Shown piece by piece: positions 1 through 18,801 of a DNA stretch of 20,179 nucleotides. Source of the DNA: a virus. A program made the translations under genes and the position numbers. The notes below the pieces were generated by a model, which saw only the letters and a list, made by a program, of their open reading frames with translations, was not told the origin of the DNA and ran no database searches. The stretch is taken from IMG/VR virus record IMGVR_UViG_3300049596_001001, positions 1-20,179 of that record. One strand, given 5' to 3'. Every line of letters starts with the position of its first letter. The stretch's first letter is position 1.

Positions 1-285
1 GAATACCGAGCTTGGTTGCTGAAAAATGGTGTCAATCCTGACGAAAAATCCAAAAAGAAAAAAGAATTTGTTGCGTATCAAACGCCAAAACAAGTTATTC
101 GTGAGACACCTCGCTACTCAAGTCTAACTACAGCAAGCGCTAGACCAGATGCTTGTGCAAAAAAAGAATCTCCAAAATACACTGGCACAAAAATGCTCGG
201 AATCGGCCAGTTGCACAAAAGCAACGCAGTACCAGTATTCTGTGACCAAGACGCAATTGACATCGCAAAGATGCGAAGAGGATAA
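1..285 (+). CDS. Conserved phage protein of unknown function, C-terminal part
   Basis: This reading frame is open from the first base, so the gene begins outside the window; about 94 residues are visible. The visible part is lysine-rich near its start, then serine/threonine-rich, and ends in a compact conserved-looking tail (YTGTKMLGIGQLHKSN, then AVPVF and IAKMRRG). I recall very similar tails in unnamed proteins of aquatic T4-like phages, but know no function. No membrane segment or catalytic motif is seen. Its stop lies one base before the start of the serine hydroxymethyltransferase gene, and the end of this gene (GAAGAGGA) supplies that gene's ribosome-binding site, so the two are probably read as one operon. 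The TTG at 16 is not a credible start because the frame is open upstream. Confidence 0.8.
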   Translation, partial: EYRAWLLKNGVNPDEKSKKKKEFVAYQTPKQVIRETPRYSSLTTASARPDACAKKESPKYTGTKMLGIGQLHKSNAVPVFCDQDAIDIAKMRRG

Positions 286-286
286 T

Positions 287-1429
287 ATGATCGACAAAAG
301 AATTCTAAGTATACTTTCGAACGAAGGTATTCGTCAAGCTGATACCATTGAACTAATTGCAAGTGAAAACTTTGCCAGTAAAGAAGTACTGCAACTAGCT
401 GGTAGTATCCTTACTAATAAGTATGCAGAAGGTTATCCTGGTAAACGCTATTACAATGGATGCGCAAACGCAGATGACATTGAGCAATTAGCTATCGATA
501 CGTTATGCGATTTGTTTGGTTCTAAGTTTGCTAACGTTCAACCTCATTCTGGTGCTAATGCTAACCTCGCAGTATTTAAAGCATTCTTGCAACCCGGCGA
601 TACTGTGCTTGGAATGGATCTAGCAAGCGGTGGTCATTTGTCGCATGGTGCTAAAGTAAATATTTCAGGTGCATGGTTTAATTCTCATTCATACGGAGTG
701 AATGATGAAGGTTTGCTAGACTATGAAGCTATTAGAAACATGGCCGTTAATCTAAAGCCAAAGATGATTGTTGCTGGAGCAAGTGCTTATCCACGACAAA
801 TCGATTGGGTAAAATTCCGCGAAATTGCTGATGAAGTCGGTGCTCTACTACTTGTAGATATGGCACACTACTCAGGGTTGGTCGCTGGAGGGGCTTATGA
901 CAGTCCGATTGAGTACGCTGATATCGTCACATCAACTACTCACAAAACACTCCGTGGACCTCGTGGAGGCATTATTCTATGGAACAATGAAGCATATACT
1001 AAGAAAATCAATGGTGCAATCTTTCCAGGTACTCAAGGTGGTCCTTTGATGCATATTATTGCTGCAAAAGCTCAATGCTTTATTGAAGCAAGTACAGACG
1101 AATTTATGGAATACTCTCAAAACGTTGTGCGAAATGCAAAAGCAATGTGTGATGTGTTTACCAAAGAAGGTTTTAAAGTACAAACTGACGGCACCGATAG
1201 TCACATTATTTTGATGAATCTAAGTGAGAGTAAATACAGTGGTCGTGAAGCAGCAGATTTGCTCGAAGCAAACGGAATTACTGTAAACAAGAATGGTATT
1301 CCTAATGACCCCCGTAGCTTTGTAGAAACAAGTGGTATTCGTATTGGTACTGCTGCTGAAACAACACGCGGTCATGACGAACAATGGTTCCGTGAACTAG
1401 CATACACTATTACAGACATTCTAAAATAA
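287..1429 (+). CDS. glyA: Serine hydroxymethyltransferase
   Basis: PLP enzyme that interconverts serine plus tetrahydrofolate with glycine plus 5,10-methylene-tetrahydrofolate, the one-carbon donor for dTMP and for hydroxymethylated pyrimidines. The 380-residue product carries the family signatures in order: IELIASENFAS (21-31), NKYAEGYPGKRYYNGC (44-59), QPHSGANAN (85-93), the PLP-binding LLVDMAHYSGLVAGG (188-202; D191, H194), the Schiff-base lysine in STTHKTLRGPRGG (K220), FPGTQGGPLMH (246-256) and the carboxylate-binding arginine in SGIRIGTAA (R352). It is shorter than the E. coli enzyme (417), mostly by trimmed loops and tail, with no visible loss of active-site residues, so it is probably active. 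The ATG at 287 is chosen over an in-frame upstream start because GAAGAGGA sits just before it and the protein then begins like other GlyA proteins. In a phage this is an auxiliary metabolic gene, likely supplying folate one-carbon units for viral DNA synthesis (inference). Confidence 0.95.
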   Translation: MIDKRILSILSNEGIRQADTIELIASENFASKEVLQLAGSILTNKYAEGYPGKRYYNGCANADDIEQLAIDTLCDLFGSKFANVQPHSGANANLAVFKAFLQPGDTVLGMDLASGGHLSHGAKVNISGAWFNSHSYGVNDEGLLDYEAIRNMAVNLKPKMIVAGASAYPRQIDWVKFREIADEVGALLLVDMAHYSGLVAGGAYDSPIEYADIVTSTTHKTLRGPRGGIILWNNEAYTKKINGAIFPGTQGGPLMHIIAAKAQCFIEASTDEFMEYSQNVVRNAKAMCDVFTKEGFKVQTDGTDSHIILMNLSESKYSGREAADLLEANGITVNKNGIPNDPRSFVETSGIRIGTAAETTRGHDEQWFRELAYTITDILK

Positions 1430-4693: not shown

Positions 4694-5119
4694 ATGGCAG
4701 TAAGAATTTCTATCACAGAAATCATTCAAAGCGCAGCTGAAAAGAAAACAACTGAAGAAAAAGTTGATTTTCTTCGTAAAAATGATAATCCAGCACTTAG
4801 AATTGTGCTAAAATATACATATGATAACGCGATTGAGTTTTTGATTCCGAACACACCTCCACCTTGGGAGAAAAACGAATACGAAGACGAAGCAAAAAGT
4901 CTTTTATTTAGAGAAGCTCGTAAATTAAGAATGTTCATTAAAAACGGCGGATATGATAGTTTAAATAAAGTCAAGCGCGAACAGCTGTTTATTAGTCTTT
5001 TAGAAGATGTTGATAATGATGACGCAGATACTCTCTGCCAAATGATTAGCAAGAAGCCTTTTAAAGGACTTACTAAAAAGACTATTGAAGAAGCATTTCC
5101 TAATCTAATTGAATCGTAA
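4694..5119 (+). CDS. Conserved T4-like phage protein, DUF6433-like
   Basis: 141-residue soluble, mostly helical protein with no catalytic motif that I can name. Recognisable stretches are EEKVDFLRKND (21-31), PNTPPPWEKNEYEDEA, LLFREARKLRMFIKNGGYD, VKREQLFISLLEDVDNDDA, and KKPFKGLTKKTIEEAFPN. This pattern, and the position directly after rnh, match my memory of the DUF6433 family of marine T4-like phages, whose function is unknown. The gap to rnh is one base, and AGGAC inside the rnh end may serve as ribosome-binding site, so it is probably co-transcribed with rnh and involved in replication or repair (inference from context). Confidence 0.75.
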   Translation: MAVRISITEIIQSAAEKKTTEEKVDFLRKNDNPALRIVLKYTYDNAIEFLIPNTPPPWEKNEYEDEAKSLLFREARKLRMFIKNGGYDSLNKVKREQLFISLLEDVDNDDADTLCQMISKKPFKGLTKKTIEEAFPNLIES

Positions 5120-5135
5120 TAAAGGCAGTACGTAA

Positions 5136-5315
5136 ATGAGTAATGGCATCAAAAAATTCCGTGAAACATGGGAAGATGATGAGTGGGGTTCTGATGATTC
5201 TCCTTCCAGAAAAAGAAAAGAAAGAACAAAAGAGCAGCGTAAAAAAGCTCGAGATCAGAAGCTTTCTGACCGTTGGTATGATGACGACATGAAAATAAAG
5301 CGAAAAAAGAAGTAA
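5136..5315 (+). CDS. Small highly charged protein, unknown
   Basis: 59 residues: an acidic/aromatic N-terminal part (FRETWEDDEWGSDD) followed by a strongly basic stretch (RKRKERTKEQRKKARDQK) and an RWYDDDMKIKRKKK tail. No membrane segment or known fold is seen; it is probably helical and nucleic-acid or protein binding (inference). An AAAGG sequence precedes the ATG by about ten bases. Same strand as and 16 bases after the DUF6433-like gene, so it ends the rnh operon. Codon use and a clean start/stop support a real gene despite its size. Confidence 0.65.
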   Translation: MSNGIKKFRETWEDDEWGSDDSPSRKRKERTKEQRKKARDQKLSDRWYDDDMKIKRKKK

Positions 5316-5352
5316 AAAGTGTATCTTTTTTGACACACTTTCGCAAAAGTAG

Positions 5353-6183: not shown

Positions 6184-6611
6184 TGAATAACATCATAGTA
6201 AACGGTGGAAAACGTTCAGAACGTGACATCGTAGAGCATGCCGTTTATTGGTGCGTTCAAAAAATGATGCCAAAAATTAAAACGCTTGATATAGAAGTAA
6301 CCATCTTAAAGCTTGATGACGCTTTTGGCTATTGTTTATGTGAAGATAAACGTACTTTTCAACTTGACATCAAAAAAGGTTTAACTCTTTATGACTTGAT
6401 TAGTACTGTTTGCCATGAAATGACTCATGTAAAACAATACGTCCGTGGCGAACTTAAAGAAGTTAATTATGGCGCTAAGTGGAAAGGTAAGCTATTTAAA
6501 GATAGTATGGCATATGCAAAAATGCCTTGGGAAAAAGAAGCATTTGACCTAGAAAAAGAGTTAACATTTAAATGCTTTGAAGAAATTAGTTTTACATTTC
6601 ATAATCAATAA
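6183..6611 (+). CDS. SprT-like zinc metalloprotein (HExxH)
   Basis: 142-residue protein with a zincin motif HEMTH (H78, E79, H82) inside the helix STVCHEMTHVKQYV, and a downstream PWEKEAFDLEKEL helix (115-127) whose glutamate (E117 or E119) is the likely third zinc ligand. This layout fits SprT-like minimal metalloproteases, which in cells act on DNA-bound proteins; phage versions have no proven substrate. Only the core is present, with no C-terminal zinc ribbon. A role in proteolysis during replication or host takeover is inference. It is the last gene of the early operon starting at 5728. Confidence 0.8.
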   Translation: MNNIIVNGGKRSERDIVEHAVYWCVQKMMPKIKTLDIEVTILKLDDAFGYCLCEDKRTFQLDIKKGLTLYDLISTVCHEMTHVKQYVRGELKEVNYGAKWKGKLFKDSMAYAKMPWEKEAFDLEKELTFKCFEEISFTFHNQ

Positions 6612-6625
6612 ATAAAGCTAAATAA
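6607..6625 (+). promoter_or_regulatory. Two late-promoter-like boxes
   Basis: AATAAATA (6607-6614) and CTAAATAA (6618-6625) both resemble the T4 late box TATAAATA and variants reported for T4-like cyanophages. They lie just before the gene at 6641 and its AGGAAAG ribosome-binding site. In A+T-rich DNA such near-matches also arise by chance. Confidence 0.4.
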
Positions 6626-6640
6626 CATATAGGAAAGCAA

Positions 6641-6904
6641 ATGGAAAACCTAACTCTATCAGAAATTAATCAACTTATTGTAGAAGCAGGTGGTGCTGTT
6701 GTAGCAGAAACTGCTGAATTTAGACAAATTAATGCTTCAGGCGAAGCATCATATCGTATTACTTATCCGGGTTCAAGCACAGTTATGCAAATGAACTCTG
6801 AGGGATCGATGGAAGAAATTACAAGCGATACAACTACGAATACTATTTTCGTTACTGCAAAAGAAGATGGTGGATTCAGGGCAAGTATCAATAGTTTACT
6901 CTAA
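6641..6904 (+). CDS. Hypothetical protein, 87 residues
   Basis: Acidic, polar 87-residue protein. It begins with a helix (NLTLSEINQLIVEAGGAVV) and continues with a beta-rich, Ser/Thr-rich stretch (YRITYPGSSTVMQMNSEGSM, then NTIFVTAKEDGGFRA). No signal peptide, membrane segment or catalytic motif. A good ribosome-binding site (AGGAAAG) precedes the ATG, and possible late boxes lie upstream, so it may be a late, virion-associated protein (inference). It ends just before a pair of terminators. Confidence 0.7.
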   Translation: MENLTLSEINQLIVEAGGAVVAETAEFRQINASGEASYRITYPGSSTVMQMNSEGSMEEITSDTTTNTIFVTAKEDGGFRASINSLL

Positions 6905-6908
6905 ACAA

Positions 6909-6928
6909 AAATGCCCCTAAGGGCATTT
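6909..6928 (-). terminator. Rho-independent terminator for the minus-strand gene
   Basis: AAATGCCC (6909-6916) pairs with GGGCATTT (6921-6928) around a CTAA loop. Read on the minus strand the stem is followed by a T-rich run (TTTTTGTTT), so it ends transcription coming from the membrane-protein gene. On the plus strand no T run follows. Confidence 0.7.
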
Positions 6929-6937
6929 CTAAGAATT

Positions 6938-6962
6938 GGCTAGGATTTTCCTAGCCTTTTTT
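6938..6962 (+). terminator. Rho-independent terminator for the plus-strand genes
   Basis: GGCTAGG (6938-6944) pairs perfectly with CCTAGCC (6950-6956), five-base loop, followed by six T (6957-6962). It ends plus-strand transcription after the 87-residue protein. Its T run overlaps the stop codon of the facing gene. Confidence 0.85.
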
Positions 6963-7302
6963 ATTCATTTTTATTAGTACTCTTGTATGCATCAGCACCA
7001 AAGAATGCAGCAACTAAAGCTGAAATAGCAATAAAGTATGTTGGCGCAATATCACCAATAATGCCAGCAGCTGTATCTAAACCTAGGAATGAAGTAACCA
7101 TGATTGTTGTTGGATATAGTAGCATACCAAACAATGCGAACCATGTCATTTTGCGCATAGCATCGCGTTGAGCATCTTGATCTTCTAAAGTTTTACGTTT
7201 AAACTCTAGATGCATGTCCATTTCTGATTGGCTAATGTGACCATCTTCATTAGCGTCCATGCCTTCAACTGCAGTTGAGTCAATTGTTTTTCTCGTTGCC
7301 AT
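6961..7302 (-). CDS. EF-hand membrane protein, holin-like
   Basis: 113-residue protein joining a calcium-binding EF-hand loop to a two-helix membrane hairpin. The loop DANEDGHISQSE (16-27) has all canonical positions: D1, N3, D5, G6, I8, E12. A charged helix (EFKRKTLEDQDAQRDAMRK) leads to membrane segments near 54-75 (FALFGMLLYPTTIMVTSFLG) and 85-106 (IAPTYFIAISALVAAFFGA), and a short charged tail. Size, two membrane helices and charged ends suit a holin, but this is inference; another small inner-membrane protein is possible. It is the only minus-strand gene in the first 12 kb, with its own late promoter, a strong AGGGGA ribosome-binding site and its own terminator, as expected for a separately timed late gene. 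Confidence 0.75.
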   Translation of the reverse strand: MATRKTIDSTAVEGMDANEDGHISQSEMDMHLEFKRKTLEDQDAQRDAMRKMTWFALFGMLLYPTTIMVTSFLGLDTAAGIIGDIAPTYFIAISALVAAFFGADAYKSTNKNE

Positions 7303-7359
7303 ATATATCCCCTGTAAATTTACGGTTTAAATACATAACAAAGAACCTCACACTATAAC

Positions 7360-7367
7360 TATTTATA
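7360..7367 (-). promoter_or_regulatory. Late promoter for the EF-hand membrane protein
   Basis: TATAAATA read on the minus strand, overlapping a plus-strand copy by four bases in the palindrome TATTTATAAATA. Predicted start near 7354, about 50 bases before the gene. Confidence 0.65.
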
Positions 7368-7371
7368 AATA
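7364..7371 (+). promoter_or_regulatory. Late promoter for the structural genes
   Basis: Exact TATAAATA on the plus strand. Predicted start near 7377, giving a leader of about 60 bases that contains the 12-base palindrome ATTAGATCTAAT (7385-7396) and ends in an AAAGGAGA ribosome-binding site. It probably reads the whole run 7439-12134, as no other convincing promoter or terminator is seen there. Confidence 0.7.
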
Positions 7372-7438
7372 ACAGTATTGGATCATTAGATCTAATCAAA
7401 TCAAAACAAATAAATGCTAATAGTCAAAGGAGACGAAG

Positions 7439-7633
7439 ATGGCAATAAAAATCAATAGTACTGTAGTGATTAACAATTCTCGTCAATTGGAAAATATCAC
7501 AGAAGCCGATGTAACTACTGACGCAACAATCAATCAGGCGATTAAAAATCAACTTAATGTTCTTAGAATCTATGATTCTACTGGAACTGAAGTTAGAACG
7601 CTTTGGTGTGCCGCTACTACAGCCGTATCTTAA
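7439..7633 (+). CDS. Small virion/tail-fibre-type protein
   Basis: 64-residue protein whose opening (MAIKINSTVVINNSRQLENI) matches the short repeat-like start found on many tail-fibre and structural proteins of T4-like aquatic phages, as I recall. The rest is polar and beta-prone (LNVLRIYDSTGTEVRTLW). No signal peptide or membrane segment. It has a strong AAAGGAGA ribosome-binding site behind a late promoter and is followed 17 bases on by another structural gene, so a virion component is likely. Exact position in the particle is unknown. Confidence 0.65.
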   Translation: MAIKINSTVVINNSRQLENITEADVTTDATINQAIKNQLNVLRIYDSTGTEVRTLWCAATTAVS

Positions 7634-7650
7634 TTTAAGGGGTAATACTT

Positions 7651-8616
7651 ATGGCTGTTCGTAGACCGATCGTTTATGACGATCGACCAACCGGTTTTCA
7701 CATCTACCAATTAAGTGATACGGAAATTACATCTATTATTGATGGCACCGCGGAAGATGCTTATTATGCCAATCCGGCAACTACGTTAACTGTTGTAGGT
7801 TCAGGTGGCAATTTAGCCGGTTTGCCAATGACCGATACTCGCTATCAAGCCGGTGGTGCTACTTCAAGAGTAGATAGATTTTCTACAGAAGCTGAAACGC
7901 CAGACATTTCAATCGTTACTGTAAACTATTCTAGAATTAGTCAAACAATTTTTACCGGATCAATTCCAGCTAATACAAGTAATTTAAGATGGCCCGTCTA
8001 TTTAGACGGTAGTAATAACATAAGAGCCATGACTACCACTGACTTTTATGATACTTTTGTGGTGCCTTCACTAGCTCGTATTAATAGCGCTACTTCTGGT
8101 TCACCTACTGGAATTACTAACGATTATATTATTAATACATCAACAACTCTTACAGGTTATACGTTAGTTTCTAGTACACCAGTATTTACTGATACTCGCG
8201 CAGATACATCACTTTATACTGCAGGTGGTATTGCAGAAACACAAGATCAACCTGCCACTATTAATAACTATTATCTTCATCAAAATGGTGGCGCAGCATA
8301 TAATGATCCTGGTTTTATGCCATTGTATTTTGATGCTGGTACTGAGCAACTACGCACATACACACAAGCGACATGGAGAGCAACTCTTGGTCCAATGTTA
8401 CAATATTATAAAGCCCAGTCGGGAAGTACGGTATCTTATAGCATTAATGGAACAGGCACTACGATGGGAACTATTATGCTGAACACAATACTTTCGCCTA
8501 CTGGCACTGGATATACACAAAACTTTGTTAATGTTGACGATTATCGTACACAAGAATTTCCAAACGGCACTGTAATTACAGCAAACACCTATGAATTGAA
8601 GAAAACTACAATATAA
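7651..8616 (+). CDS. Virion structural protein
   Basis: 321-residue, glycine/serine/threonine-rich, beta-type protein. Its opening MAVRRPIVYDDRPTGF, the TLTVVGSGGNLAGL stretch (45-58), the DTRYQAGGATSRVDRFSTEAETP segment and the ISIVTVNYSRISQTIF strand recall a structural protein family of T4-like cyanophages found near tail or neck genes. Low charge, repeated Thr/Gly/Ser runs (STSGS, NTSTTLTGYT, SINGTGTTMGTIM) and absence of enzymatic motifs fit a particle protein. It has an AAGGGG ribosome-binding site and sits between two genes of the same late operon. It may be a fibre, baseplate or neck component; the sequence does not decide. Confidence 0.7.
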   Translation: MAVRRPIVYDDRPTGFHIYQLSDTEITSIIDGTAEDAYYANPATTLTVVGSGGNLAGLPMTDTRYQAGGATSRVDRFSTEAETPDISIVTVNYSRISQTIFTGSIPANTSNLRWPVYLDGSNNIRAMTTTDFYDTFVVPSLARINSATSGSPTGITNDYIINTSTTLTGYTLVSSTPVFTDTRADTSLYTAGGIAETQDQPATINNYYLHQNGGAAYNDPGFMPLYFDAGTEQLRTYTQATWRATLGPMLQYYKAQSGSTVSYSINGTGTTMGTIMLNTILSPTGTGYTQNFVNVDDYRTQEFPNGTVITANTYELKKTTI

Positions 8617-8627
8617 GGAAATACATA

Positions 8628-9182
8628 ATGTCATTATTTAATGGAAAAATATTAGAAGCTCGTTACATGGACGCAGAATACTCTATAGTGGAAGTATTAT
8701 ATGAAAGTGATGACGGGAAAGTTTATTCGTACGCTCTTAGACCAGATCCAGAAAATGAAGAATGGAAAGATTTAGTTGCAGACGGTTGGGATCAAGATAA
8801 ATTAATAGAGCAAACTGTCGCATATAAAAAAGCAGCATCTGGTTCTTTTGCTGCGCAAGTTAATGCTGCTGCAAAGGCGCTTGTCGATCAATTGCTTGCA
8901 AAAAAGTCTGATTCACAATCAGAGTTTGATGTATTGTCATTAGCAAAATTAAGTAATTTAAATGCTGAAGAATACGAAAAAAGAAAAGAAGCCGAATTAG
9001 AAGGTCAAAATGTCTATAATTTTATTATGGATAAGAACTCAGATAAAGACGAATTGTTTAAATTTAAAATGTGGGCATTAGACTTAGATTTTGTTAAGAG
9101 TAAGGATAAAGAAACTAAGTCTGCTTTACGTAAAGTGCAAAGTATTTTAGAAGGTTTATCAATGCTAAATAGCCTGAAATAA
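8628..9182 (+). CDS. Hypothetical protein following the structural genes
   Basis: 184-residue soluble protein. The first third is beta-rich (ILEARYMDAEYSIVEVLYES, KVYSYALRPDPENEEWKDLV); the remainder is helical and charged (AAQVNAAAKALVDQLLAKK, EEYEKRKEAELEGQNVYNFI, ETKSALRKVQSILEGLSML), with likely amphipathic or coiled-coil helices. No enzyme motif. With an AAGGAA ribosome-binding site and placed 11 bases after the structural gene, it probably is a minor virion protein or an assembly/chaperone factor for its neighbours (inference from position). Confidence 0.65.
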   Translation: MSLFNGKILEARYMDAEYSIVEVLYESDDGKVYSYALRPDPENEEWKDLVADGWDQDKLIEQTVAYKKAASGSFAAQVNAAAKALVDQLLAKKSDSQSEFDVLSLAKLSNLNAEEYEKRKEAELEGQNVYNFIMDKNSDKDELFKFKMWALDLDFVKSKDKETKSALRKVQSILEGLSMLNSLK

Positions 9183-9200
9183 TACTGATGAACTTATATT

Positions 9201-9794
9201 ATGTTGAATATTATTTTTGTTAAACACGGTAATAAGTATACAGCTGAGCACGTTAATAGATTAGCAGATCAGCTTTTTAAATATTACCCAACGTCAAACT
9301 TTTATTGCTATACAGAAGATCCTTGGAATGTTAAAATACCAATTATACCAATATTTAAAAAACCTACTTTAAAATTTTGGTGGAATAAATTAGCGATGTT
9401 TAGTAAGGATTTTCCAGTGGAAGGAAAATGTCTTTACTTTGATTTAGACATGGATATTAAATCAGACTTTTCTGAGTATATCAAATGGGACGGATTAACA
9501 GTACTTCGCGACTACTGGAAAGACGAACTATACATGGCTCCTCATGCTTATGATGTCCACATAAATAGTTCTATAATAACATGGATTGCCGGTGAACAAT
9601 CGCATATATGGGAACATTTTTTATCTAATAAAGATTATTTCATGAGAAAATATGTCGGTATAGACAGATTTCTTATTCATGAAAAGTTTGAATTAAATAA
9701 TTTTAAAGATGGCATAGTAAACAGTGTTGGTAATCCACTACCATACGATGCGCCAATTGATATGTACAATGGAATAAAATATGAGTTATCGTGA
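9201..9794 (+). CDS. GT-A type glycosyltransferase
   Basis: 197-residue protein with a GT-A nucleotide-sugar fold: an N-terminal strand (MLNIIFVKHGNKYT), KFWWNKLAMFS, then the metal-binding acidic motif in CLYFDLDMDIKSDF (D81, D83, D85), followed by a HINSSIITW segment that could form the acceptor side. It is short for a glycosyltransferase, so only the catalytic core is present. Donor and acceptor are unknown. It overlaps the next gene by 14 bases, implying coupling with the methyltransferase-like protein. No clear Shine-Dalgarno sequence precedes its ATG. Start of the accessory enzyme island. Confidence 0.75.
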   Translation: MLNIIFVKHGNKYTAEHVNRLADQLFKYYPTSNFYCYTEDPWNVKIPIIPIFKKPTLKFWWNKLAMFSKDFPVEGKCLYFDLDMDIKSDFSEYIKWDGLTVLRDYWKDELYMAPHAYDVHINSSIITWIAGEQSHIWEHFLSNKDYFMRKYVGIDRFLIHEKFELNNFKDGIVNSVGNPLPYDAPIDMYNGIKYELS

Positions 9795-10431
9795 AGAAAT
9801 TTATAAAAATGCATTAAAGCAAATAGAAAAAATTTATATTGAATCAAAATACAATCCAAACGCGGATTTGTATAGAAGTCTTGATATTATGAATTCAGTA
9901 AGTGATGGCCAATTTGCAAGCAAAGAATGGCTAGTAAAAAACCTAGATCCCTTTATTAATCATGCTGAACTTCGTAACGTAGCGGTATTGGGAAGCTGGT
10001 ACGGTTTAGTTGGAATGATTTTAAGACATCACATCTCAAAAGACGTCAGCATTGTAAACATTGATTCTGAAGAGTTGACTAAAGAAATTGGTTTTATATT
10101 TACAAGAGATAACCCAATTTATAAAAACAATTATTATAAAATTGATGATGCTGTAAATCACATTATGGAAGCACAACCAAACGCGTATCAAATTATTATT
10201 AACACCAGTTGCGAGCACATGGAGCCGGATGATATTCAGTTTATATTGAAATCTAAAGGTGGAAAATCTATGGTATGTTTTCAAAGTAATAACTACGACT
10301 CTGTCCAAAGTCACGTTAACACGCATAAAAGTTTAGATGATTTTGCTAATTCGTTAAATTTAATTGACGTGTATTATGCCGGTACTCTTAGAACAAATAA
10401 TTATGAAAGATACATGGTTATTGGTGTATGA
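9781..10431 (+). CDS. Class I methyltransferase-like protein
   Basis: 216-residue protein with a Rossmann-type motif I, VAVLGSWYGLVGMIL (67-81), and an acidic residue ending the next strand, VSIVNIDSEE (D95), as in SAM-dependent methyltransferases. Later strands (YQIIINTSCEHME, SMVCFQSNNYD) fit motifs IV-V, with NTSCEHM in place of a classical catalytic motif. The glycine motif is unusual (LGSWYG rather than GxGxG), so activity is not certain. It overlaps the flanking genes by 14 and 4 bases, so it is translated together with two glycosyltransferases and may methylate the same glycan or sugar (inference). Confidence 0.65.
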   Translation: MSYREEIYKNALKQIEKIYIESKYNPNADLYRSLDIMNSVSDGQFASKEWLVKNLDPFINHAELRNVAVLGSWYGLVGMILRHHISKDVSIVNIDSEELTKEIGFIFTRDNPIYKNNYYKIDDAVNHIMEAQPNAYQIIINTSCEHMEPDDIQFILKSKGGKSMVCFQSNNYDSVQSHVNTHKSLDDFANSLNLIDVYYAGTLRTNNYERYMVIGV

Positions 10432-12134
10432 AAAGAATAATTTTTACGTCTTATGATGATCTCAAGACAAATAATTTATCAAAGCTAGATTCTACTGCTG
10501 AGAATCAAATTGCAGACTATTTTGATCGTCTTGTAGAAAATAAGAAAAATTATGCTAAAAGTATTGGTGTGGATTTTAAGTTGTATCATAATACAATGCA
10601 AGATTTTGCAGTAACTGGTGAATTAGAATTTACTAAGGTTAACTTATATAAGCATCATCTTATGCATGAGCTTGCTAAACAATATGATGAAGTTATGTAC
10701 GTAGATATGGATGTAGTATTTAATACAACAAAGAACGTATTTGAAGAACTTCAATTAGATCAAGGTATTCATGTTATTCACCAAGATGAAGAAATTCTTT
10801 CTAAAAATATAAACGAAATACTATTCCAAAAATTAGGGTTAAGAAATTCTACTCTTAAATACCATATTACAAAAGATCTTTTAGACGGAAAAGACAATCA
10901 CGTAATTAACACTGGTGTTATCATTGGTAAAAGCGAACACTTAAAACAAATTAAACTTGTAGAAAGACTACCAGATATTATTGAAAAAATAAATGATTTA
11001 AAAAATCAAATCGGATCTGGTAAAGATTTCGTTTATTTAAGGGGTTATTATTATCCTAATAACGAATCAGTATTTTCTTACATTTTAGAAGAATACGATA
11101 TTCCATATGTAATAATGGATAAGAAGTGGCATACTATTTGCGATTATGTCGCTAGACAAAAGAGTGAAGCTGAAATTTATCACTTTGTTAATAAAAACTT
11201 TTATGCTTTTTTTAAAAATAAAACAAAAGCTATATTTTCAATTTACGTAAAAATAGATGACGTAAATTTAGATAATCCGAGTTCAGCTGTCGATAGTATA
11301 ATTCCAAAAAGTAAACAAACTCAAATATTGCTTGAACAATACAAAGATCAGCTCTACGCTAATAAAGAACAATATGCTAAAGCTATTGGCGCAGAATTTA
11401 TCTTGTTTCAACGAGATGAGAAGTACGAAACGTTTTTAAAAAGATTTCCAGATCTTTCAGAATACGATGTTGTAAATCTATATAAAATTTATTTGTTAGA
11501 TGAATTAACAAAGCAATATGATTATGTTCTATATTTAGATTATGATGTTGTTGCATTAAATAGCATAGATTTTTTTGATCATGTTCCGGTAGAAAACGCT
11601 ATTGGTTGTTATTATTCTACTCCTGAAAGTTTGGATATACCAAAAGACAAAAACAACTATTTTAAAAATTATAGTAAAGATTTTAGATCTCCGCACAGCA
11701 AATATTGGAATGCTCATGCTTTGTTGTCTGAAGAAGATTTAGATCCAGAAAATGTAGTATTTAATACTGGCATTATTGGCGCTAGTAAGAAAATGATGGA
11801 TAAGTTAGATTATTTTTCTGATATAGATAAAACTATTCAAACAATGAAAGCTCTTAAAGAGTCATCTATGTATCCCGAAAAAGTACAAGCTGCTTTTGGT
11901 TATGACAACGAAACTATTTTCTCATACAAAGTTAAAAAGAATAAAGTACCAGTTTATCAATTAGGTAGTGATTGGCATTATAAACACAACTATAAAAACA
12001 AAGATTCTTTTACTAAAGGAACAAGTTCTTATACGCTAGATAAATATGAATTCGAGCTAGATGTAAAAAGACATAACGTAGTTCTTGCTCATTTTATTTC
12101 TAAAAATTTTGGAATATACTTTGAAAGAACTTAA
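10428..12134 (+). CDS. Tandem double-domain GT-A glycosyltransferase
   Basis: 568-residue protein made of two related GT-A (GT8-like) domains, about 1-265 and 266-568. Each has the same order of landmarks: a metal-binding motif (VMYVDMDVVF, D93/D95; VLYLDYDVVA, D371/D373), an NTG motif (VINTGVIIG, 161-163; VFNTGIIGA, 446-448), an NE-S/T-x-FSY segment (NESVFSY 212-218; NETIFSY 494-500), a W-H (KKWHTI; SDWHYK), and a final HF-x-x-KNF (252-258; 555-561). Both domains keep their motifs, so both may be active, perhaps adding two sugars in sequence. Last gene of the plus block; its stop overlaps that of the converging oxygenase gene by four bases. Confidence 0.8.
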   Translation: MKRIIFTSYDDLKTNNLSKLDSTAENQIADYFDRLVENKKNYAKSIGVDFKLYHNTMQDFAVTGELEFTKVNLYKHHLMHELAKQYDEVMYVDMDVVFNTTKNVFEELQLDQGIHVIHQDEEILSKNINEILFQKLGLRNSTLKYHITKDLLDGKDNHVINTGVIIGKSEHLKQIKLVERLPDIIEKINDLKNQIGSGKDFVYLRGYYYPNNESVFSYILEEYDIPYVIMDKKWHTICDYVARQKSEAEIYHFVNKNFYAFFKNKTKAIFSIYVKIDDVNLDNPSSAVDSIIPKSKQTQILLEQYKDQLYANKEQYAKAIGAEFILFQRDEKYETFLKRFPDLSEYDVVNLYKIYLLDELTKQYDYVLYLDYDVVALNSIDFFDHVPVENAIGCYYSTPESLDIPKDKNNYFKNYSKDFRSPHSKYWNAHALLSEEDLDPENVVFNTGIIGASKKMMDKLDYFSDIDKTIQTMKALKESSMYPEKVQAAFGYDNETIFSYKVKKNKVPVYQLGSDWHYKHNYKNKDSFTKGTSSYTLDKYEFELDVKRHNVVLAHFISKNFGIYFERT

Positions 12135-12678: not shown

Positions 12679-13254
12679 TTATTTAAATATGCGTTTTACA
12701 TCGTCAAACTCATGACCAAAGCCATAAGTAATTAAATATCTTGGTGTGTGTCTGTCTCCAGTTACAGCATGATAATTATACGTATTAACTAAAAACCCAA
12801 AACCGTCTTCTATGATATAATTAGTAGAATTGTTATAAAAATTTACATTAGTATTTTGGTGTGCAATTTTAGTAATTGCACTATTACTATTTTTCACACC
12901 AATATTAATACAGCACATTCTGCTAGATTCGTCTCGATGTGGTAAAATACTTCCTAACGTTTTAATAAAATGTACCCTATTAGGATCTGGCTTAAATTCA
13001 TCAATGGTTATATTATCTATTATTTTTGCTACTTTTTCGCACATTTCATATAGCACATTATTTTTTATAGTATTTCTTGTAAAACCAATAGAACCTGCTA
13101 TTCCTTTTTCATCTCTATATTCCATCCAACATGGATAACTTGGTACAACCATTTTTGTTCCATACTTATGCAATACAGTTTCAAAAGAATTTGTTTCTTC
13201 AATATACTTATCAAATTCGCTTGGGTCTAATAATTTTCCTAAACTCAGCATCAC
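12679..13254 (-). CDS. Fe(II)/2-oxoglutarate oxygenase 2
   Basis: 191-residue protein with an HxD...H...R set: H106-x-D108 (GSILPHRDESSR), H162 (NTYNYHAVTG) and R172 (HTPRYLITYGFG). CCINIGVKNSNSA follows the HxD as the expected core strand. The N-terminal hundred residues differ from the neighbouring oxygenases, so this is a separate family member rather than a recent tandem copy. Substrate unknown. Its start overlaps the stop of the upstream oxygenase gene by four bases, so the block is translated as a coupled operon from the late promoter near 14500. Confidence 0.75.
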   Translation of the reverse strand: MMLSLGKLLDPSEFDKYIEETNSFETVLHKYGTKMVVPSYPCWMEYRDEKGIAGSIGFTRNTIKNNVLYEMCEKVAKIIDNITIDEFKPDPNRVHFIKTLGSILPHRDESSRMCCINIGVKNSNSAITKIAHQNTNVNFYNNSTNYIIEDGFGFLVNTYNYHAVTGDRHTPRYLITYGFGHEFDDVKRIFK

Positions 13255-13883
13255 ACCTCCAACATAGTTAAATTTTTTGGTAAAACAGATTTGTCAACAT
13301 CTAAAATTAACACATTTCTGATTTGTGTACCACGATTTTCAGCCCAGTGATTTAACAACCCGTCTTCAAATCCAAAGCATAAATTTTCGCGGTATTTTAA
13401 AGGATATAAATTTTCTATAAAGAAATAAGAGTCATCACCAGGTTCAATAGTAATGTGTATTCTAAAATGATCTGGGACCTTATTAACAGCTAAACCATTT
13501 ACTCCAAAATGAGGATTGATTTTTGCACCGGGATGCAATACGTTATAAAACATTTGTCTAACTGTTGGGTTATTTTTTAAAAAATTCTTATGCAAAGGAC
13601 AAAGTTCTCTACGTTGGCGCTGTCTTTCTAAGTTAGCTTCTCTGTCTTTACCAAACATAACTTGTTCACGCGCATCTAATAAATTTTCATCTATTTGAAG
13701 CATATAAGTATTAACTTTGCCAAGATATACTGGCAAACCTTGCGGAGTAACTGTTTGAAATTTTTTAACAAACATTGTTGTGTTTTTAAAATCTGGTAAA
13801 TTTAAAAACTCTGCTTTGTACTGCTCCAAAGATTGCGTAATCTCTTGAACCATTTCTAATTTACTAACATCTAAGTATGACAT
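13251..13883 (-). CDS. Aspartyl/asparaginyl beta-hydroxylase-like oxygenase
   Basis: 210-residue protein whose C-terminal half fits the Asp/Asn beta-hydroxylase family: VLHPGAKINPHFGVNG (115-130), FRIHITIEPG (140-149; R141, H143), FGFEDGLLNHWAENRG (170-185; H179) and R189 in IRNVLILDV. The metal site reads H125-x-G127...H179, lacking the usual aspartate. That is known for human AspH, which binds iron with two histidines, so it does not mean inactivity. The N-terminal part contains a very basic stretch (KDREANLERQRQRRELC, 79-95). A peptide or amino-acid side chain is the expected substrate type; the actual one is unknown. Confidence 0.75.
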   Translation of the reverse strand: MSYLDVSKLEMVQEITQSLEQYKAEFLNLPDFKNTTMFVKKFQTVTPQGLPVYLGKVNTYMLQIDENLLDAREQVMFGKDREANLERQRQRRELCPLHKNFLKNNPTVRQMFYNVLHPGAKINPHFGVNGLAVNKVPDHFRIHITIEPGDDSYFFIENLYPLKYRENLCFGFEDGLLNHWAENRGTQIRNVLILDVDKSVLPKNLTMLEV

Positions 13884-13895
13884 ATATTAATCTTT

Positions 13896-14468
13896 TTATC
13901 GTATCCATTCAGCATAGATTCTGCGATTGTTATTTTCCCAGCAACATTCGTTTAGATTAAATCCAAATTTATTTGCAAGTCTAATATGTTCATCAATCGA
14001 CCACGGATAAAAATTAATTTTTTTACACTCTTCGCTAGGATGATCTTGCTGACCAGGATTACATCTCCAATAAATTCGTGCAGATGGTTTTAGCAAACTA
14101 ACAACTTTAGTAATTTGTCTTTCAATGTCGGCGACATCACCAAAGTTAATACTTCCTAAACACAATGCGACATCAAACTTTTTATCAGTTATAAATTCAT
14201 CAATGCCACACTTTACATCAGCTTGATCAAACGCAGGATCTATACCTACTAAGTTTTTAATTAATCCTTTAAAAGGATTTGTTCCGCATCCTACATCAAT
14301 GACTTGATCTTCTAAACTAATTTTATCAAGTAATAGCATTCCAGACTTTTCATTTTGAATGCTGGGATTACTGTTAGTGTGCCAAATATTTCCAAAATAA
14401 TAATCTAAATATTTTTGATCTACCATCGATGCTACTGCCATAAGTGCCATCATAACCAGTCCTTTCAT
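13896..14468 (-). CDS. SAM-dependent methyltransferase
   Basis: 190-residue class I methyltransferase: motif I VIDVGCGTNPFKG (56-68), motif II NLVGIDPAF (72-80; D77), a later strand FDVALCLGSINFGD (98-111) in the motif IV position, and VVSLLKPSARIYWRCNPG (122-139). It resembles small-molecule or sugar methyltransferases more than DNA enzymes. The start is uncertain: ATG 14468 gives an N-terminus MKGLVMMALMAVASM with no ribosome-binding site, while ATG 14453 has AAAGGA six bases upstream. The first 15 residues are oddly hydrophobic for a cytosolic enzyme. It leads the minus-strand block with the three oxygenases. Confidence 0.75.
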   Translation of the reverse strand: MKGLVMMALMAVASMVDQKYLDYYFGNIWHTNSNPSIQNEKSGMLLLDKISLEDQVIDVGCGTNPFKGLIKNLVGIDPAFDQADVKCGIDEFITDKKFDVALCLGSINFGDVADIERQITKVVSLLKPSARIYWRCNPGQQDHPSEECKKINFYPWSIDEHIRLANKFGFNLNECCWENNNRRIYAEWIR

Positions 14469-14509: not shown

Positions 14510-15085
14510 ATGCTACCAAATAAAATATTTTTAACAGGTGTACCAGGAAGCAGATGGAGCGGTATTGCACAAACTTTAGAATCATTGAATGGTTTTAATA
14601 TTAGTGATAGGACTCCTACTCGAGAGTTTAGTCACAATGGATTTACAGGACATAAGGGTGCATACTTTGGTGAAGGTATGGAATTTGAATCTTACCTAGA
14701 TCCCAGCTATATTGATAATGCTTGGTTAAATAACACAGGTACTAAAGTAGTTAAGAGTCACGATTGGGCATACAATTTGCAAACAATACGAGAAGTATTC
14801 CCTGATGATTGGATCATGCTGGTCTATCGTCCCGACAAGGCTAGTTATACATGGTGGTGCGAAGCAGGCGGGTTTGATATTAAATATCCTACCTACAATA
14901 TGTACAAAGACAGCGCAACTATGTTAGCTAAGATAGAAGAACAAAATGCATGTATATTGCGTTTTGCGCACAAACATAATTTAACTTGGAATTACTTTAC
15001 ACCAAGTTGGATTGAACAAAATTTTAAACAAAATGTAGAAGTGAGACAATCATGGCCAGATATATTAGTAACTTTATTAAAGTAA
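14510..15085 (+). CDS. P-loop protein, sulfotransferase-like, paralogue A
   Basis: 191-residue protein opening with IFLTGVPGSRWSGIA (6-20), a P-loop-like turn of the kind sulfotransferases use to bind the PAPS 5'-phosphosulfate. It has SHDWAYNLQTIREVFPDDWIMLVYRPD in the middle, where the VYRPD...S pattern would be the 3'-phosphate site. It is clearly related to the gene at 16947: shared landmarks are MLPN-IF-TG-PGS-W, SDRT, GH-GAYFG, HDWAY, DWI, a WW pair and the G-Y-KYP-Y segment. Similar unnamed proteins occur in T4-like aquatic phages, as I recall. Sulfo transfer is inference; another nucleotide-dependent function is possible. The gene overlaps the next one by 34 bases. Confidence 0.7.
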   Translation: MLPNKIFLTGVPGSRWSGIAQTLESLNGFNISDRTPTREFSHNGFTGHKGAYFGEGMEFESYLDPSYIDNAWLNNTGTKVVKSHDWAYNLQTIREVFPDDWIMLVYRPDKASYTWWCEAGGFDIKYPTYNMYKDSATMLAKIEEQNACILRFAHKHNLTWNYFTPSWIEQNFKQNVEVRQSWPDILVTLLK

Positions 15086-16026
15086 TTGTTTTTGCATTAA
15101 TTACATCAACCGCATGGGCGTGGGAACCGACTAAGCATGTTAATGTATTAATAGGTTTTGCGCCTGGATCAGGTAATGAATTGAGTTTTAGAGGCATTAG
15201 TAGTATTCTAGAAAAAGCAAATCCTAAACTAACTTTTGTAATAGAAAATCGTCCAGGCGCTAGTGGTGTTGTAGCAATGAACGAATTCATTTCTCGTGCA
15301 GCAGACGGTCACCACATTCATATTCCTAGCAATCAAGGAGTATTTGTTACTGCAGAATTTTTTCAAAAAAGTATCGTCAAATACAATTTAGATGATTTTG
15401 AATATGTAGTAGGAATCGCAAAGAGTCCTTTAGTTGTTATTGCACATAGTAGTAGTGATGTTAATAATCCTAGTGAATTAGTTAATAAGTTACGAACAAC
15501 TACTAAGCCGATTAATATTGCCGCAGGCAGTGGAGCACACAAGTTAGCATATGATTATATGGCTGACAAGATTAAACTAGATAAAAAACTAATTACTACT
15601 ATAGAATATAAAGGTCCTGCGCAAGCTGGAGCAGATGTTGCAGGCGGCCATTTAGAGTTTGGTATTATTCCTGCAGCAATAGCAGCACCACTAGCACAAT
15701 CTGGAAAAGTTAAAATCATTGGTTTGACTAGTGAACGAACTATCAAAGGTTTTGAAAATACTCCATTAATGAATAAATGGGTACCAGGAATGAACGTCTA
15801 TGCCGGTTGGGGTATCATACTGCCTAAAGGAACATCTGCTGAAATACAAAAATGGTACGTTGATAACTTTTCTAGGGCTATTAGAAGCCCAGAAGCACGA
15901 GTATTTTTTGAAAATAATTATATGTTTGCAGACGAAACAGAACTAACATCAGATGGTTTTAAGAGAAGTATGGCAGATTTAAGAAAACTGTGGGTGCCAG
16001 TATTAGAAAAATTATCAATCAATTAA
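15052..16026 (+). CDS. Bug/TctC-type periplasmic solute-binding protein
   Basis: 324-residue member of the Bug (TctC) family, the extracytoplasmic receptors of tripartite tricarboxylate transporters and their orphan relatives, which bind carboxylates and similar small molecules. A Sec signal peptide is clear: basic/polar start, hydrophobic VIVFALITSTAWA (11-23), cleavage expected after A23. Family landmarks follow: HVNVLIGFAPGSGNEL (29-44), a VIENRPGASGVVAMNEF block (63-79), AADGHHIHIPSNQG, INIAAGSGAHKLAY, EYKGPAQAGADVAGGHLEFG and VPGMNVYAGWGIILPKGT. Full length; no TctA/TctB membrane partners are in the window, so it would need host partners or act alone. The start is fixed by the signal peptide even though it overlaps the previous gene by 34 bases. 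Confidence 0.9.
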   Translation: MARYISNFIKVIVFALITSTAWAWEPTKHVNVLIGFAPGSGNELSFRGISSILEKANPKLTFVIENRPGASGVVAMNEFISRAADGHHIHIPSNQGVFVTAEFFQKSIVKYNLDDFEYVVGIAKSPLVVIAHSSSDVNNPSELVNKLRTTTKPINIAAGSGAHKLAYDYMADKIKLDKKLITTIEYKGPAQAGADVAGGHLEFGIIPAAIAAPLAQSGKVKIIGLTSERTIKGFENTPLMNKWVPGMNVYAGWGIILPKGTSAEIQKWYVDNFSRAIRSPEARVFFENNYMFADETELTSDGFKRSMADLRKLWVPVLEKLSIN

Positions 16027-16060: not shown

Positions 16061-16960
16061 ATGATATCAATTCCACAACATATTAAATGGTCTATTAATT
16101 CTATAGACTTCGGTAATTACGAAGGTATACCATACAATGACGATGTTAATTTTGTTTTTAATTATGAAAACATATATGAAGGATATGATCCTTCAGTTAA
16201 TTTTAAACAAGCAATTAGAAACAGACTAACACAATTAAGTGATAAAAAACTTGCAATTTGCTTATCAGGAATAGATAGCGAAATTATTGCTAGAGAAGCT
16301 AAGGATCTTGGTTTAAACTTTGAATTGTTTTTTCTAAGCAATTGGGGATTAAACAATTATATGCTTGCGTTGTGCGAGCAGCTTGCTATTGAATTAAATA
16401 CTAAATTAAATGTAGTAACTGTTACTAGACAAGATGCTTTTGATTTTGCTAAGTTGCAGTACCAGACAAGAAGAGTAAATAAGCCAACGTATTTAATTTT
16501 GCCTATGTTGTTTGACGCTATCCCTGAAGACTATTATATTATTTGCGGCGAAGGTGACATCAATAAATCTGGTAAAGACTATACAGAAGCGCAGATTGTT
16601 GTTGAAGATAATATTAGTATTTCGAATACTGAAATTTCATATTGGCTGTGGGCCATGCAAAAAAACAGAAATGGAGACTATTATTTCTTTTCTGCAACTA
16701 AAGAATTAATTTTGTCAGACTGGAATGCTCCATTAACAGAAATAAACTTTCCGGAAATTTCTAACAGAAGAAATATACAAAGCTTGTGGGGCAACAATTT
16801 AATTTTTACTGAAAAGACTACCAATTGGGATACTGAGGCAGGCAGACAAGCAAATTACGAAATGAGATTAGAAAATTATAATGTATTTGGGCTCGATAAA
16901 ATTTATCGAGGTGTTGTTATTTGTAATGTTGTAATTGAGAGAATGAATGCTGCCCAATAG
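16061..16960 (+). CDS. PP-loop-like protein with a degenerate ATP motif
   Basis: 299-residue protein with a PP-loop ATPase-like core: KLAICLSGIDSEIIAREAKDLG (63-84) aligns with the SGGxDS loop of asparagine synthetases and related enzymes that adenylate a carboxylate or thiolate substrate, but reads LSGIDSE, with the first glycine replaced. FELFFLSNWG (87-96) and LNVVTVTRQDAF are the expected next strands; YYIICGEGDINKSG (157-170) resembles the later ATP or substrate loop. The altered loop could mean a changed or lost ATP reaction. It does not look like a copy of the PP-loop protein at 17695-18801. An AAAAGGG ribosome-binding site precedes it, and it overlaps the next gene by 14 bases. Confidence 0.6.
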   Translation: MISIPQHIKWSINSIDFGNYEGIPYNDDVNFVFNYENIYEGYDPSVNFKQAIRNRLTQLSDKKLAICLSGIDSEIIAREAKDLGLNFELFFLSNWGLNNYMLALCEQLAIELNTKLNVVTVTRQDAFDFAKLQYQTRRVNKPTYLILPMLFDAIPEDYYIICGEGDINKSGKDYTEAQIVVEDNISISNTEISYWLWAMQKNRNGDYYFFSATKELILSDWNAPLTEINFPEISNRRNIQSLWGNNLIFTEKTTNWDTEAGRQANYEMRLENYNVFGLDKIYRGVVICNVVIERMNAAQ

Positions 16961-17576
16961 AATTTTTGTAACAGGAGCACCAGGATCTAAATGGACTAGC
17001 GTAACACACTTATTAGAAACTGTACCAGGTGCAAATACTAGCGATAGAACTACTAATAGGTGTTATGATCATGCTGTTTTTCAAGGACATCACGGCGCAT
17101 ACTTTGGATTACCCCATCGCAAATATGAATTTGATTGTAAAATAGATAGCGATTACATTGATAGTGCGTTTGAAACTAATAGCAGCGGCAGATTTGTAAA
17201 AGGTCACGATTGGGCTTATCACCTTGACGATTTAAAAGAAGCGTTTCCCGGCGATTGGATTATAATGGTTCAGCGAGATAGTATTGATTGTTTTGCGTGG
17301 TGGAATAATCACGGCGGTTACACAACAAAATATCCTAGTTATGAAAGCTATGGAGAAAATGCTGGCATGATGGGTGAGATAATGAAATTGAACGAAATAT
17401 ATTCAGACTTTGCTCAGAAGCATGACCAAAAATGGGAATACTTTAATACTAGATGGATTGCTGAAAATTTTAATCATCAAGTAACAGATGAACATTTAAA
17501 AGTTCTTAATCACTTAGCACTTCAAGACTTTACAACATTCTTTAAAAGAGTAAAAGTATGTTTGGTAAAATTATGA
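16947..17576 (+). CDS. P-loop protein, sulfotransferase-like, paralogue B
   Basis: 209-residue paralogue of the protein at 14510. Shared landmarks: MLPNRIFVTGAPGSKWTSV (1-19, with the P-loop lysine that paralogue A has as arginine), SDRT, GHHGAYFG, GHDWAYHLDDLKEAFPGDWI, a WW pair, GGYTTKYPSYESYG and FAQKHDQKWEYFNTRWIAENF. It has a longer C-terminal tail than paralogue A. The two genes are separated by the Bug and PP-loop genes, so this is an old, diverged duplication. A PAPS-dependent sulfo transfer is inferred only from the loop pattern. GAGAG lies just before the ATG, within the end of the preceding gene. Confidence 0.7.
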   Translation: MLPNRIFVTGAPGSKWTSVTHLLETVPGANTSDRTTNRCYDHAVFQGHHGAYFGLPHRKYEFDCKIDSDYIDSAFETNSSGRFVKGHDWAYHLDDLKEAFPGDWIIMVQRDSIDCFAWWNNHGGYTTKYPSYESYGENAGMMGEIMKLNEIYSDFAQKHDQKWEYFNTRWIAENFNHQVTDEHLKVLNHLALQDFTTFFKRVKVCLVKL

Positions 17577-17698
17577 TTGATAAATTTTTAAAGCTTTTTG
17601 AAAATTGGCTATGTGGCGGTGTAAGCAAACAACCGGCCGAGTTAACTGATAGCGAACTACGTGATCTTTTTATTGCAAAATCTTTTATTATGTTTTAA
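17558..17698 (+). CDS. Small peptide, 46 residues, unknown
   Basis: Frame from ATG 17558 to TAA 17696-17698, overlapping the end of paralogue B by 19 bases in another frame. It encodes an amphipathic basic N-terminal helix (MFGKIMIDKFLKLFENWL), a CGG turn, then an acidic part (ELTDSELRDLFIAK) and a hydrophobic end. An AAAGAG sequence lies upstream. It fills the only gap between two accessory enzyme genes, and its stop overlaps that of the converging PP-loop gene. No family recognised; it could be a real small protein or a chance frame. Confidence 0.45.
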   Translation: MFGKIMIDKFLKLFENWLCGGVSKQPAELTDSELRDLFIAKSFIMF

Positions 17699-18801
17699 AC
17701 AAAGCTATTGTTAGGATTGTAAAAATCTATAGGATTTAATTCATCTTCATGTATGAAGTTTAAATTAGAATCAATTGCTTCTGCGGATTTCTTTTGAATG
17801 AATAGCTTATAAAGACTTCCCATTTTTACTTTATTATCTCGATAGTCTTCATCTTTATTAAATTCGCAAATTACTCTTTTTGCTTCCCACTTATACGTGC
17901 TCCACGTTGAAAATAATTTCTTATCTGGATTAGTCATACTCCACATTTGAAATTCTGGTGTTCCGTAAAACATAATAAAATGATCTTTAAGAAAATCAAC
18001 GCTTAAATATTTTCTATAATTTTCATCAACGCGCGCTAGCATTCTAAAGAAAACTGTTTGCCATTTGAAGCAAAAGTTAACCCACCAAAAGAAATCGAAG
18101 TTGGTTTTAACTTCACATGGCGCAATGTTTTTTATTTGATAGTCAATTAGATTAAACCAAGCATTTGCGCCATCTTCAGTCATGCCTTGCATTATAAACC
18201 AGCCAACAATGTATTCGCGAGAATAAGGATGCGTTATTTTTGAATAGTCATATTGTCTATAAATCTTTCCTACGACATCGCTACCAGAAAGTTGATCGTT
18301 AAATTCACCACCCAATACGATACAGTCACCTGTAAGAAACGCACCAATGTTGTCACTTGATTCTATTTTAAATTTATCTCGTATATGTTCGTAATAAAAG
18401 TTAGGGTTTTCAACGATACTGTCAGTATTCATTGCAACAATGACTCTGTCTTTTCTTTCCTTTACACTTAAATTTTTAATTAAAGATACTAAGGTAAGAG
18501 TGCTATCAATACCACCCGAATATAATACACGAATAGGTTTGTTTAATCTACGAGACAAATTTATAATTTCAACCGCTCTTTTGTTGCAGCAGTCTTCATA
18601 AGACATATTAAAATTAGGATCAATGTTAGGAATTTGAAACCCGTCATATAGTTTAAAATTAAATGGCATTTTTATATGCTCAGTCCTATCAACTACACTA
18701 ATATTAAGACCTATAAGCTTATACATATTTCCCCATCGTTGTACAGACGGAGATTGATATTGTGTAAGTGACGTGCATCTTGCTAGATATAACGAATTCA
18801 T
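17695..18801 (-). CDS. PP-loop ATPase, asparagine-synthetase-like
   Basis: 368-residue protein with an intact PP-loop, RVLYSGGIDSTLTLVSLIKN (91-110), the ATP-binding signature of asparagine-synthetase-type amide-forming enzymes, in which ATP activates a carboxylate for amination. VIVAMNTDSIVENP (124-137) is the expected next strand and specificity loop. The N-terminal ninety residues do not start with the catalytic cysteine of a glutaminase domain, so ammonia would come from elsewhere or another nucleophile is used. The C-terminal half is aromatic and tryptophan-rich (FFWWVNFCFKW). True asparagine synthesis is only one possibility. It overlaps the upstream gene by four bases (ATGA), last gene of the minus block. 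Confidence 0.75.
   Translation of the reverse strand: MNSLYLARCTSLTQYQSPSVQRWGNMYKLIGLNISVVDRTEHIKMPFNFKLYDGFQIPNIDPNFNMSYEDCCNKRAVEIINLSRRLNKPIRVLYSGGIDSTLTLVSLIKNLSVKERKDRVIVAMNTDSIVENPNFYYEHIRDKFKIESSDNIGAFLTGDCIVLGGEFNDQLSGSDVVGKIYRQYDYSKITHPYSREYIVGWFIMQGMTEDGANAWFNLIDYQIKNIAPCEVKTNFDFFWWVNFCFKWQTVFFRMLARVDENYRKYLSVDFLKDHFIMFYGTPEFQMWSMTNPDKKLFSTWSTYKWEAKRVICEFNKDEDYRDNKVKMGSLYKLFIQKKSAEAIDSNLNFIHEDELNPIDFYNPNNSFV

Follow-up and report, generated by a model that had tools for sequence, protein, structure and literature searches.

A TctC/Bug-type receptor gene in a conserved cassette of T4-like phages

Results

The window analysed here is the entire IMG/VR record IMGVR_UViG_3300049596_001001, a genome fragment of 20,179 bases, in which a gene for a TctC/Bug-type receptor lies next to genes for a P-loop protein (ST), a class I SAM methyltransferase (MT) and a 2OG-Fe(II) oxygenase-like protein (Table 1). 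Two phage markers are present: a T4-type RNase H / 5'-3' exonuclease, which in tblastn is 47.6% identical to Sinorhizobium phage phiM12, and a SegE-type homing endonuclease. Six records with relatives of the receptor (335, 320, 303, 212, 201 and 155 kb) hold a full-length T4 Gp23 capsid gene, three of them with a terminase match in addition, and the gene neighbourhood of the window is found again in independent contigs that encode the Gp23 capsid protein and terminase. The window is DNA of a T4-like phage, with T4 core genes present both in the window itself and in related records; the label 'lytic-type', which the initial annotation had attached to it, would be compatible with this kinship. 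A phage-borne serine hydroxymethyltransferase gene stands near one end of the window; its listed ORF has about 48 surplus N-terminal residues, so that the true start is probably internal. The other end cuts through a fatty-acid desaturase gene, and desaturase-like genes were seen again in related phage loci, e.g. L094.

Table 1 Features of the 20,179-base window.
Feature	Position	Strand	Evidence or remark
Serine hydroxymethyltransferase, phage-borne	149..1429	+	NCBIfam 1.4e-168
SegE-type GIY-YIG homing endonuclease (phage marker)	1451..1882	+	PF19835 2e-38
T4-type RNase H / 5'-3' exonuclease (phage marker)	3832..4692	+	PF09293 7e-11, PHROG 107 9e-57
Aspartyl/asparaginyl beta-hydroxylase-like 2OG-Fe(II) oxygenase	13251..13883	-	PF05118 1.6e-10
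Class I SAM methyltransferase (MT), cassette gene	13896..14468	-	Family in 65 of 67 loci
P-loop protein (ST), perhaps sulfotransferase- or kinase-like, cassette gene	14510..15085	+	Family in 61 of 67 loci
ST/receptor gene overlap, 34 nt, likely translational coupling	15052..15085	+	Window and five of 59 distinct loci counted
Viral Bug/TctC receptor, 324 aa	15052..16026	+	Pfam, phmmer, AlphaFold, 66 distinct viral homologues
Sec signal peptide, residues 1-23 (..STAWA/WEP), A-x-A site	15052..15120	+	Inferred cleavage, from conservation
Ligand loop 1, G35-E43, GFAPGSGNE, viral form of TTT motif PFxAGGxxD	15154..15180	+	Alignment of 66 viral sequences
YKGPAQA stretch, residues 186-192, YKG the family-typical part	15607..15627	+	Invariant in 66 of 66 viral sequences
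PP-loop ATPase-like ORF, directly downstream of receptor	16061..16960	+	SGIDSE motif in translation only
Second ST-family copy	16947..17576	+	Sequence comparison, 43% identical to first
PP-loop ATPase-like ORF, weakly DndC-like (DNA phosphorothioation)	17695..18801	-	PADLOC DndC 1.3e-4, NCBIfam DndC 0.003
Fatty-acid desaturase fragment, cut by contig end	19907..20179	-	PF00487 8.8e-9

The Pfam model TctC (PF03401) matches residues 61-320 of the receptor at 1.7e-24 (87.3 bits, cut-off 27, covering profile positions 16-271 of 274), and phmmer against PDB sequences returned Bug27 (2qpq) at 2e-18 as well as TphC and BugD, while no model of PHROGs or NCBIfam matched the protein. Its AlphaFold model, computed with 60 viral homologues as input (pLDDT 92.1, pTM 0.85), has the two-domain Bug fold with two alpha/beta domains (TM 0.82 to 2dvz, 0.82 to Bug27, ~0.8 to TphC and ~0.8 to BugD), and the 17 PDB structures that match it best are without exception TTT receptors (E 1e-21 to 1e-24, TM 0.73-0.82). 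Profile match, Bug27 match and predicted fold together confirm the initial assignment of this ORF as a full-length, phage-encoded Bug/TctC receptor. The Sec signal peptide proposed along with it is supported by the conservation of its cleavage site: all 66 distinct viral homologues have Ala at position -1 and 58 have Ala at -3 (otherwise Ser/Val), the first mature residue is Trp in 63 and Phe in three of them, and the hydrophobic stretch varies between sequences. Two homologues (L007 and L005) have near-identical mature parts and different signal peptides, both ending in the same type of site. The conserved site points to export of the receptor via Sec to the periplasm.

In characterised receptors, the backbone of the loop PFxAGGxxD holds two waters that bridge to the ligand carboxylate (PMC5812351, PMC8556258). 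The viral consensus of this loop is [PG]-x-x-P-G-[SA]-G-N-E, with G39, G41, N42 and E43 invariant in 66/66 sequences; compared to the motif, the first highly conserved Gly is retained, the second is replaced by Ser or Ala, and the Asp is Glu throughout, a position that is occupied by Asp in 22 and by Glu in two of 24 sampled bacterial Bugs. The YKG of the second invariant stretch aligns with the YKG of Bug27 and TphC. Since the loop residues are conserved with an Asp-to-Glu change, the pocket appears to be retained in a form altered specifically in this lineage. The receptor is under purifying selection: comparing the window, L009 and L010 with one another gives dN/dS values of 0.05-0.07, against L011 they are 0.12-0.14, and they span 0.05-0.14 over all different-phage pairs save one very close pair, L013/L014, with 0.18 (0.12 when the signal peptide is left out).

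Relatives of the receptor were found with one seven-sequence profile on at least 149 IMG/VR viral contigs, 80 of which were kept; those read are 41-90% identical to the receptor of the window, and carriers include phages of 303-335 kb with the T4 major capsid protein. The searched records hold one to three TctC matches each. A0A6J5T247 from an uncultured Caudovirales phage (44% identical over 303 columns, TM 0.88) belongs to the same family, and such phage proteins bear the UniProt names 'PBP2_Bug_TTT domain containing protein' or 'Bordetella uptake protein', which are automatic names only. A maximum-likelihood tree built from 68 sequences places the viral receptors in one clade (support 100/100) whose stem measures 1.55 changes per column. 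When the proteins of 399 Burkholderiales and 398 Pseudomonadota genomes were searched, no Bug was better than E ~2e-31 or ~30% identity (best 28-30%), although likely hosts encode many, with 59 in a Limnohabitans genome and 22 in Polynucleobacter. A Variovorax genome has 140, and those of the Limnohabitans and Variovorax genomes are at most 30% identical among the matches listed. The profile's patterns also gave no relative in 84,980 species genomes, which by itself shows little, as these patterns are virus-specific words. The attempt to trace a bacterial donor by phylogeny thus failed; with so long a stem and no bacterial Bug above ~30% identity, the donor is not recognisable, and the receptor, in which the initial annotation had seen a pointer to the host group, does not point to a donor. 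With relatives on many viral contigs that form a single clade, it is a member of a phage-only lineage and no gene picked up singly from a host. Another set of Bug-like phage proteins, highly divergent, was noticed in L091, L092, L093, L094, L065, L071 and L088, each adjoining a PP-loop ATPase-like gene; L092 holds two genes of either kind.

The receptor does not stand alone either, but goes with a conserved gene cassette. Near it, in 67 distinct viral loci, the MT and ST families recur with the frequencies given in Table 1, and the 2OG-oxygenase-like family in 43. The commonest layout, found in 34 of 59 counted loci, has the MT gene divergent, then receptor, P-loop protein and oxygenase, with 4-nt overlaps between the receptor and P-loop genes in 19 loci and between the P-loop and oxygenase genes in 27; in the subgroup of the window, the P-loop gene precedes that of the receptor, and the two overlap by exactly 34 nt. 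Such overlapping coding regions point to co-expression. MT family members match Pfam Methyltransf_31/23 weakly and share invariant D-GCG and GIDP-type motifs. The ST protein has no Pfam match, and its model (pLDDT 94) found no confident match in the PDB, the best being the sulfotransferase Stf0 with E 0.03 and TM 0.40, so we rejected the outright name sulfotransferase and take 'sulfotransferase-like' as a lead only. For the ORF directly downstream of the receptor, no match was obtained in Pfam, NCBIfam or PADLOC.

Reverse searches were performed from both enzymes. Among the best 80 loci found from ST, MT lies within 4 kb in all 80, the receptor in 32, TctA plus another TctC-like gene in eight and neither in 40; among the best 80 found from MT, ST is present in 72, the receptor in 43 and TctA in five. 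The cassette's core pair is hence MT and the P-loop gene, with the receptor as a frequent third member. No locus of either set has receptor and TctA together, a mutual exclusion that is not strong evidence at these numbers, as the two sets share contigs and comprise best-scoring loci only.

A complete TTT transporter comprises TctA, TctB and TctC. No TctA was found in the 20-kb window, nor in 27 of 28 receptor records searched, so that the initial statement 'without its membrane partners' is correct for the window; since this is a genome fragment, the statement is valid for the fragment alone, and it fails for relatives. A phage-type TctA occurs in the MT-ST cassette of 12 related contigs (13 loci, two of them on the same contig: L255, L265, L270, L272, L283, L288, L290, L293, L318, L329, L372, L374). 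These proteins match PF01970 at 1e-82 to 1e-93, full-length copies have 8-12 predicted hydrophobic membrane segments, and their genes mostly lie within 70 nt of one for an exported TctC-like product of 350-380 aa, which matches PF03401 at 6e-5 in one case and gave no match in three others tested. A full Gp23 is encoded on two of the TctA-bearing cassette contigs (213 and 344 kb). The best bacterial relative of the cassette TctA in 150 Burkholderiales genomes is only 31-32% identical, so this protein also looks phage-specific. TctB is absent from the TctA-bearing cassettes. We asked whether DUF6552, a small membrane protein of many cassettes, might be a reduced TctB, and rejected this because its bacterial homologues adjoin betaine genes or an oxidoreductase and not TTT genes; in the bacterial genomes L389 and L390 (~5050-5320) it lies among apparent choline/betaine genes (sulfatase, aldehyde dehydrogenase, GMC oxidoreductase, regulator).

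TctA, TctB and a receptor are all present in one phage record, G021 (IMGVR_UViG_3300032102_000007, 142 kb). Here TctB and TctA are adjacent (L090:9461-11419, minus strand; PF07331 1.5e-15 and PF01970 5e-151) and flanked by phage genes that have relatives in L009 and L010, and the same record holds the receptor family member L058. With 63-70% identity to TctA of Comamonadaceae and other Burkholderiales, the G021 TctA looks like a recent acquisition, and it is the only gene that hints at a Burkholderiales host. TctA scan matches on contigs that are possibly prophage edges or bacterial DNA were left out of the counts. We also excluded MT836965 ('Bacteriophage sp.', human faeces) as evidence, an unannotated record marked UNVERIFIED in which a Bug 23% identical to the receptor is followed by a TctA-like ORF.

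Discussion

What might a phage gain from a receptor of this kind? We think it probable that the exported receptor delivers a carboxylate to TctA(B), be it that of the host or, in relatives, that of the phage, and uptake through host transporters, as initially proposed, thus remains the leading idea. The receptor would be synthesised in the infected cell, a Gram-negative host, and reach the periplasm through Sec, where its conserved cleft would bind a small molecule, presumably a carboxylate. It would then pass this ligand to TctA/TctB, which in most phages would be the host's own and in some relatives would include a phage-encoded TctA. Docking on the TctAB of the host is plausible, since likely hosts have many such receptors and, in bacteria, several orphan receptors have been proposed to share few TctAB or a single one (PMC5994714, PMC5812351); as TctA is missing from all but one of the receptor records searched, most of these phages would depend on such a putative host partner. 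The receptor would be produced together with MT and the P-loop enzyme, and the imported compound, or a derivative of it, may be their substrate. This link between import and enzymes would not be obligatory, because the MT-ST pair often occurs without any receptor (40 of the 80 ST-seeded loci). Further points speak against uptake: the canonical motif is altered in loop 1, with Glu for Asp and Ser/Ala for Gly, the TctA-bearing cassettes have no TctB, and the receptor adjacent to the phage TctA is of another, weakly matching type.

With known TTT receptors (TctC/Bug: Bug27, BugD, TphC, MatC, AdpC), the protein shares PF03401, the two-domain fold (TM ~0.8), the Sec signal and ligand loops in place. 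It differs from them in being just 20-30% identical, in forming a separate viral clade, in being phage-encoded with the MT-ST cassette, and in having Glu for Asp and Ser/Ala for Gly in loop 1. The closest functional parallel is arguably the PstS of T4-like cyanophages, likewise a phage-encoded periplasmic receptor that is presumed to use a membrane transporter of the host (PMC6359870); in contrast to PstS, the present receptor belongs to another transporter family, no host donor was traced for it in this analysis, and some related phages encode TctA themselves. Another TTT membrane gene, a tctA, was counted among phage auxiliary genes after a single domain hit on a SUP05 viral contig (PMC4164917), but receptor and cassette are not described there. 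In open-licence PMC papers we found no description of the receptor lineage, the cassette or the phage TctA, which is not proof of absence, and no TTT genes in the literature on jumbo and freshwater phages.

Other functions have to be weighed against uptake. The receptor might bind its carboxylate for signalling and not for transport, its loaded form contacting a sensor kinase of the host and thereby shifting host gene expression. This would suit the lack of TctA in most phage genomes searched, and BctC of Bordetella does act on both a transporter and a sensor, BctE (PMC5812351). Signalling alone, however, hardly explains the phage TctA in the cassette of relatives, no sensor gene is linked, and we regard this possibility as unlikely. 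The receptor fold could also have been recruited into the MT-ST pathway, e.g. for holding, exporting or presenting a sulfated or methylated small-molecule product of the phage enzymes, as the tight linkage with MT and ST, the gene overlaps and the altered loop 1 might suggest; yet MT and ST are predicted to be cytoplasmic while the receptor is exported, the pair is common without a receptor, and such a recruitment appears less likely still. Even less can be said for a periplasmic sponge or shield that sequesters a molecule of the host or of a competitor, such as a defence or signalling compound, or that blocks superinfection. A secreted binding protein with no transporter on its own fragment, and several receptor types per phage genome, would fit such a role, but the fact that TctA is linked to TctC-like genes in relatives speaks more for transport, and PADLOC has no match for receptor or ST and only weak DndC and MADS matches nearby; the earlier suggestions of superinfection block and defence-molecule binding thus found no support, and we consider this function improbable. 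That the gene is bacterial contamination or a misassembly, which the initial annotation had named as a refutation and which the abundance of Bug genes in likely hosts might suggest, is hardly credible and, to the extent that sequence allows, refuted, given the RNase H and SegE markers of the window, receptor relatives in records with Gp23 and terminase, the same cassette in many independent viral contigs, viral receptors that are monophyletic, and about 800 bacterial genomes in which no close relative was found.

Returning to uptake of a carboxylate as the preferred function, we can extend it, tentatively and with more doubt than conviction, to a wider hypothesis: T4-like water phages may keep a TTT system of their own, with phage-only TctC and TctA, and the imported carboxylate may be modified by the phage MT, P-loop transferase and oxygenase during infection. 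The analysis suggests that large T4-like water phages could steer the nutrient uptake of the infected bacterium. Where phages are known to carry nutrient-uptake genes, the nutrient is mostly phosphate (PstS), and the idea, if true, would extend to the uptake of organic acids, by means of a receptor lineage old enough to hide its bacterial donor and of membrane subunits that some phages bear themselves. The cassette proteins form a testable set for uptake by infected freshwater bacteria and for the chemistry that follows.

Two minor observations concern the cassette genes. The MT of L077:3847-4572 and other members of a distant group have an N-terminal extension of ~70 aa that by eye resembles an acyl carrier protein without the usual serine. 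In L394 (MH319720, Marine virus AG-345-D19, 6558-11046), a gene of the P-loop family is followed by DUF6552, and a psbA-like gene was recognised by eye on the same contig; from this gene content, part of the cassette seems to reach cyanophages.
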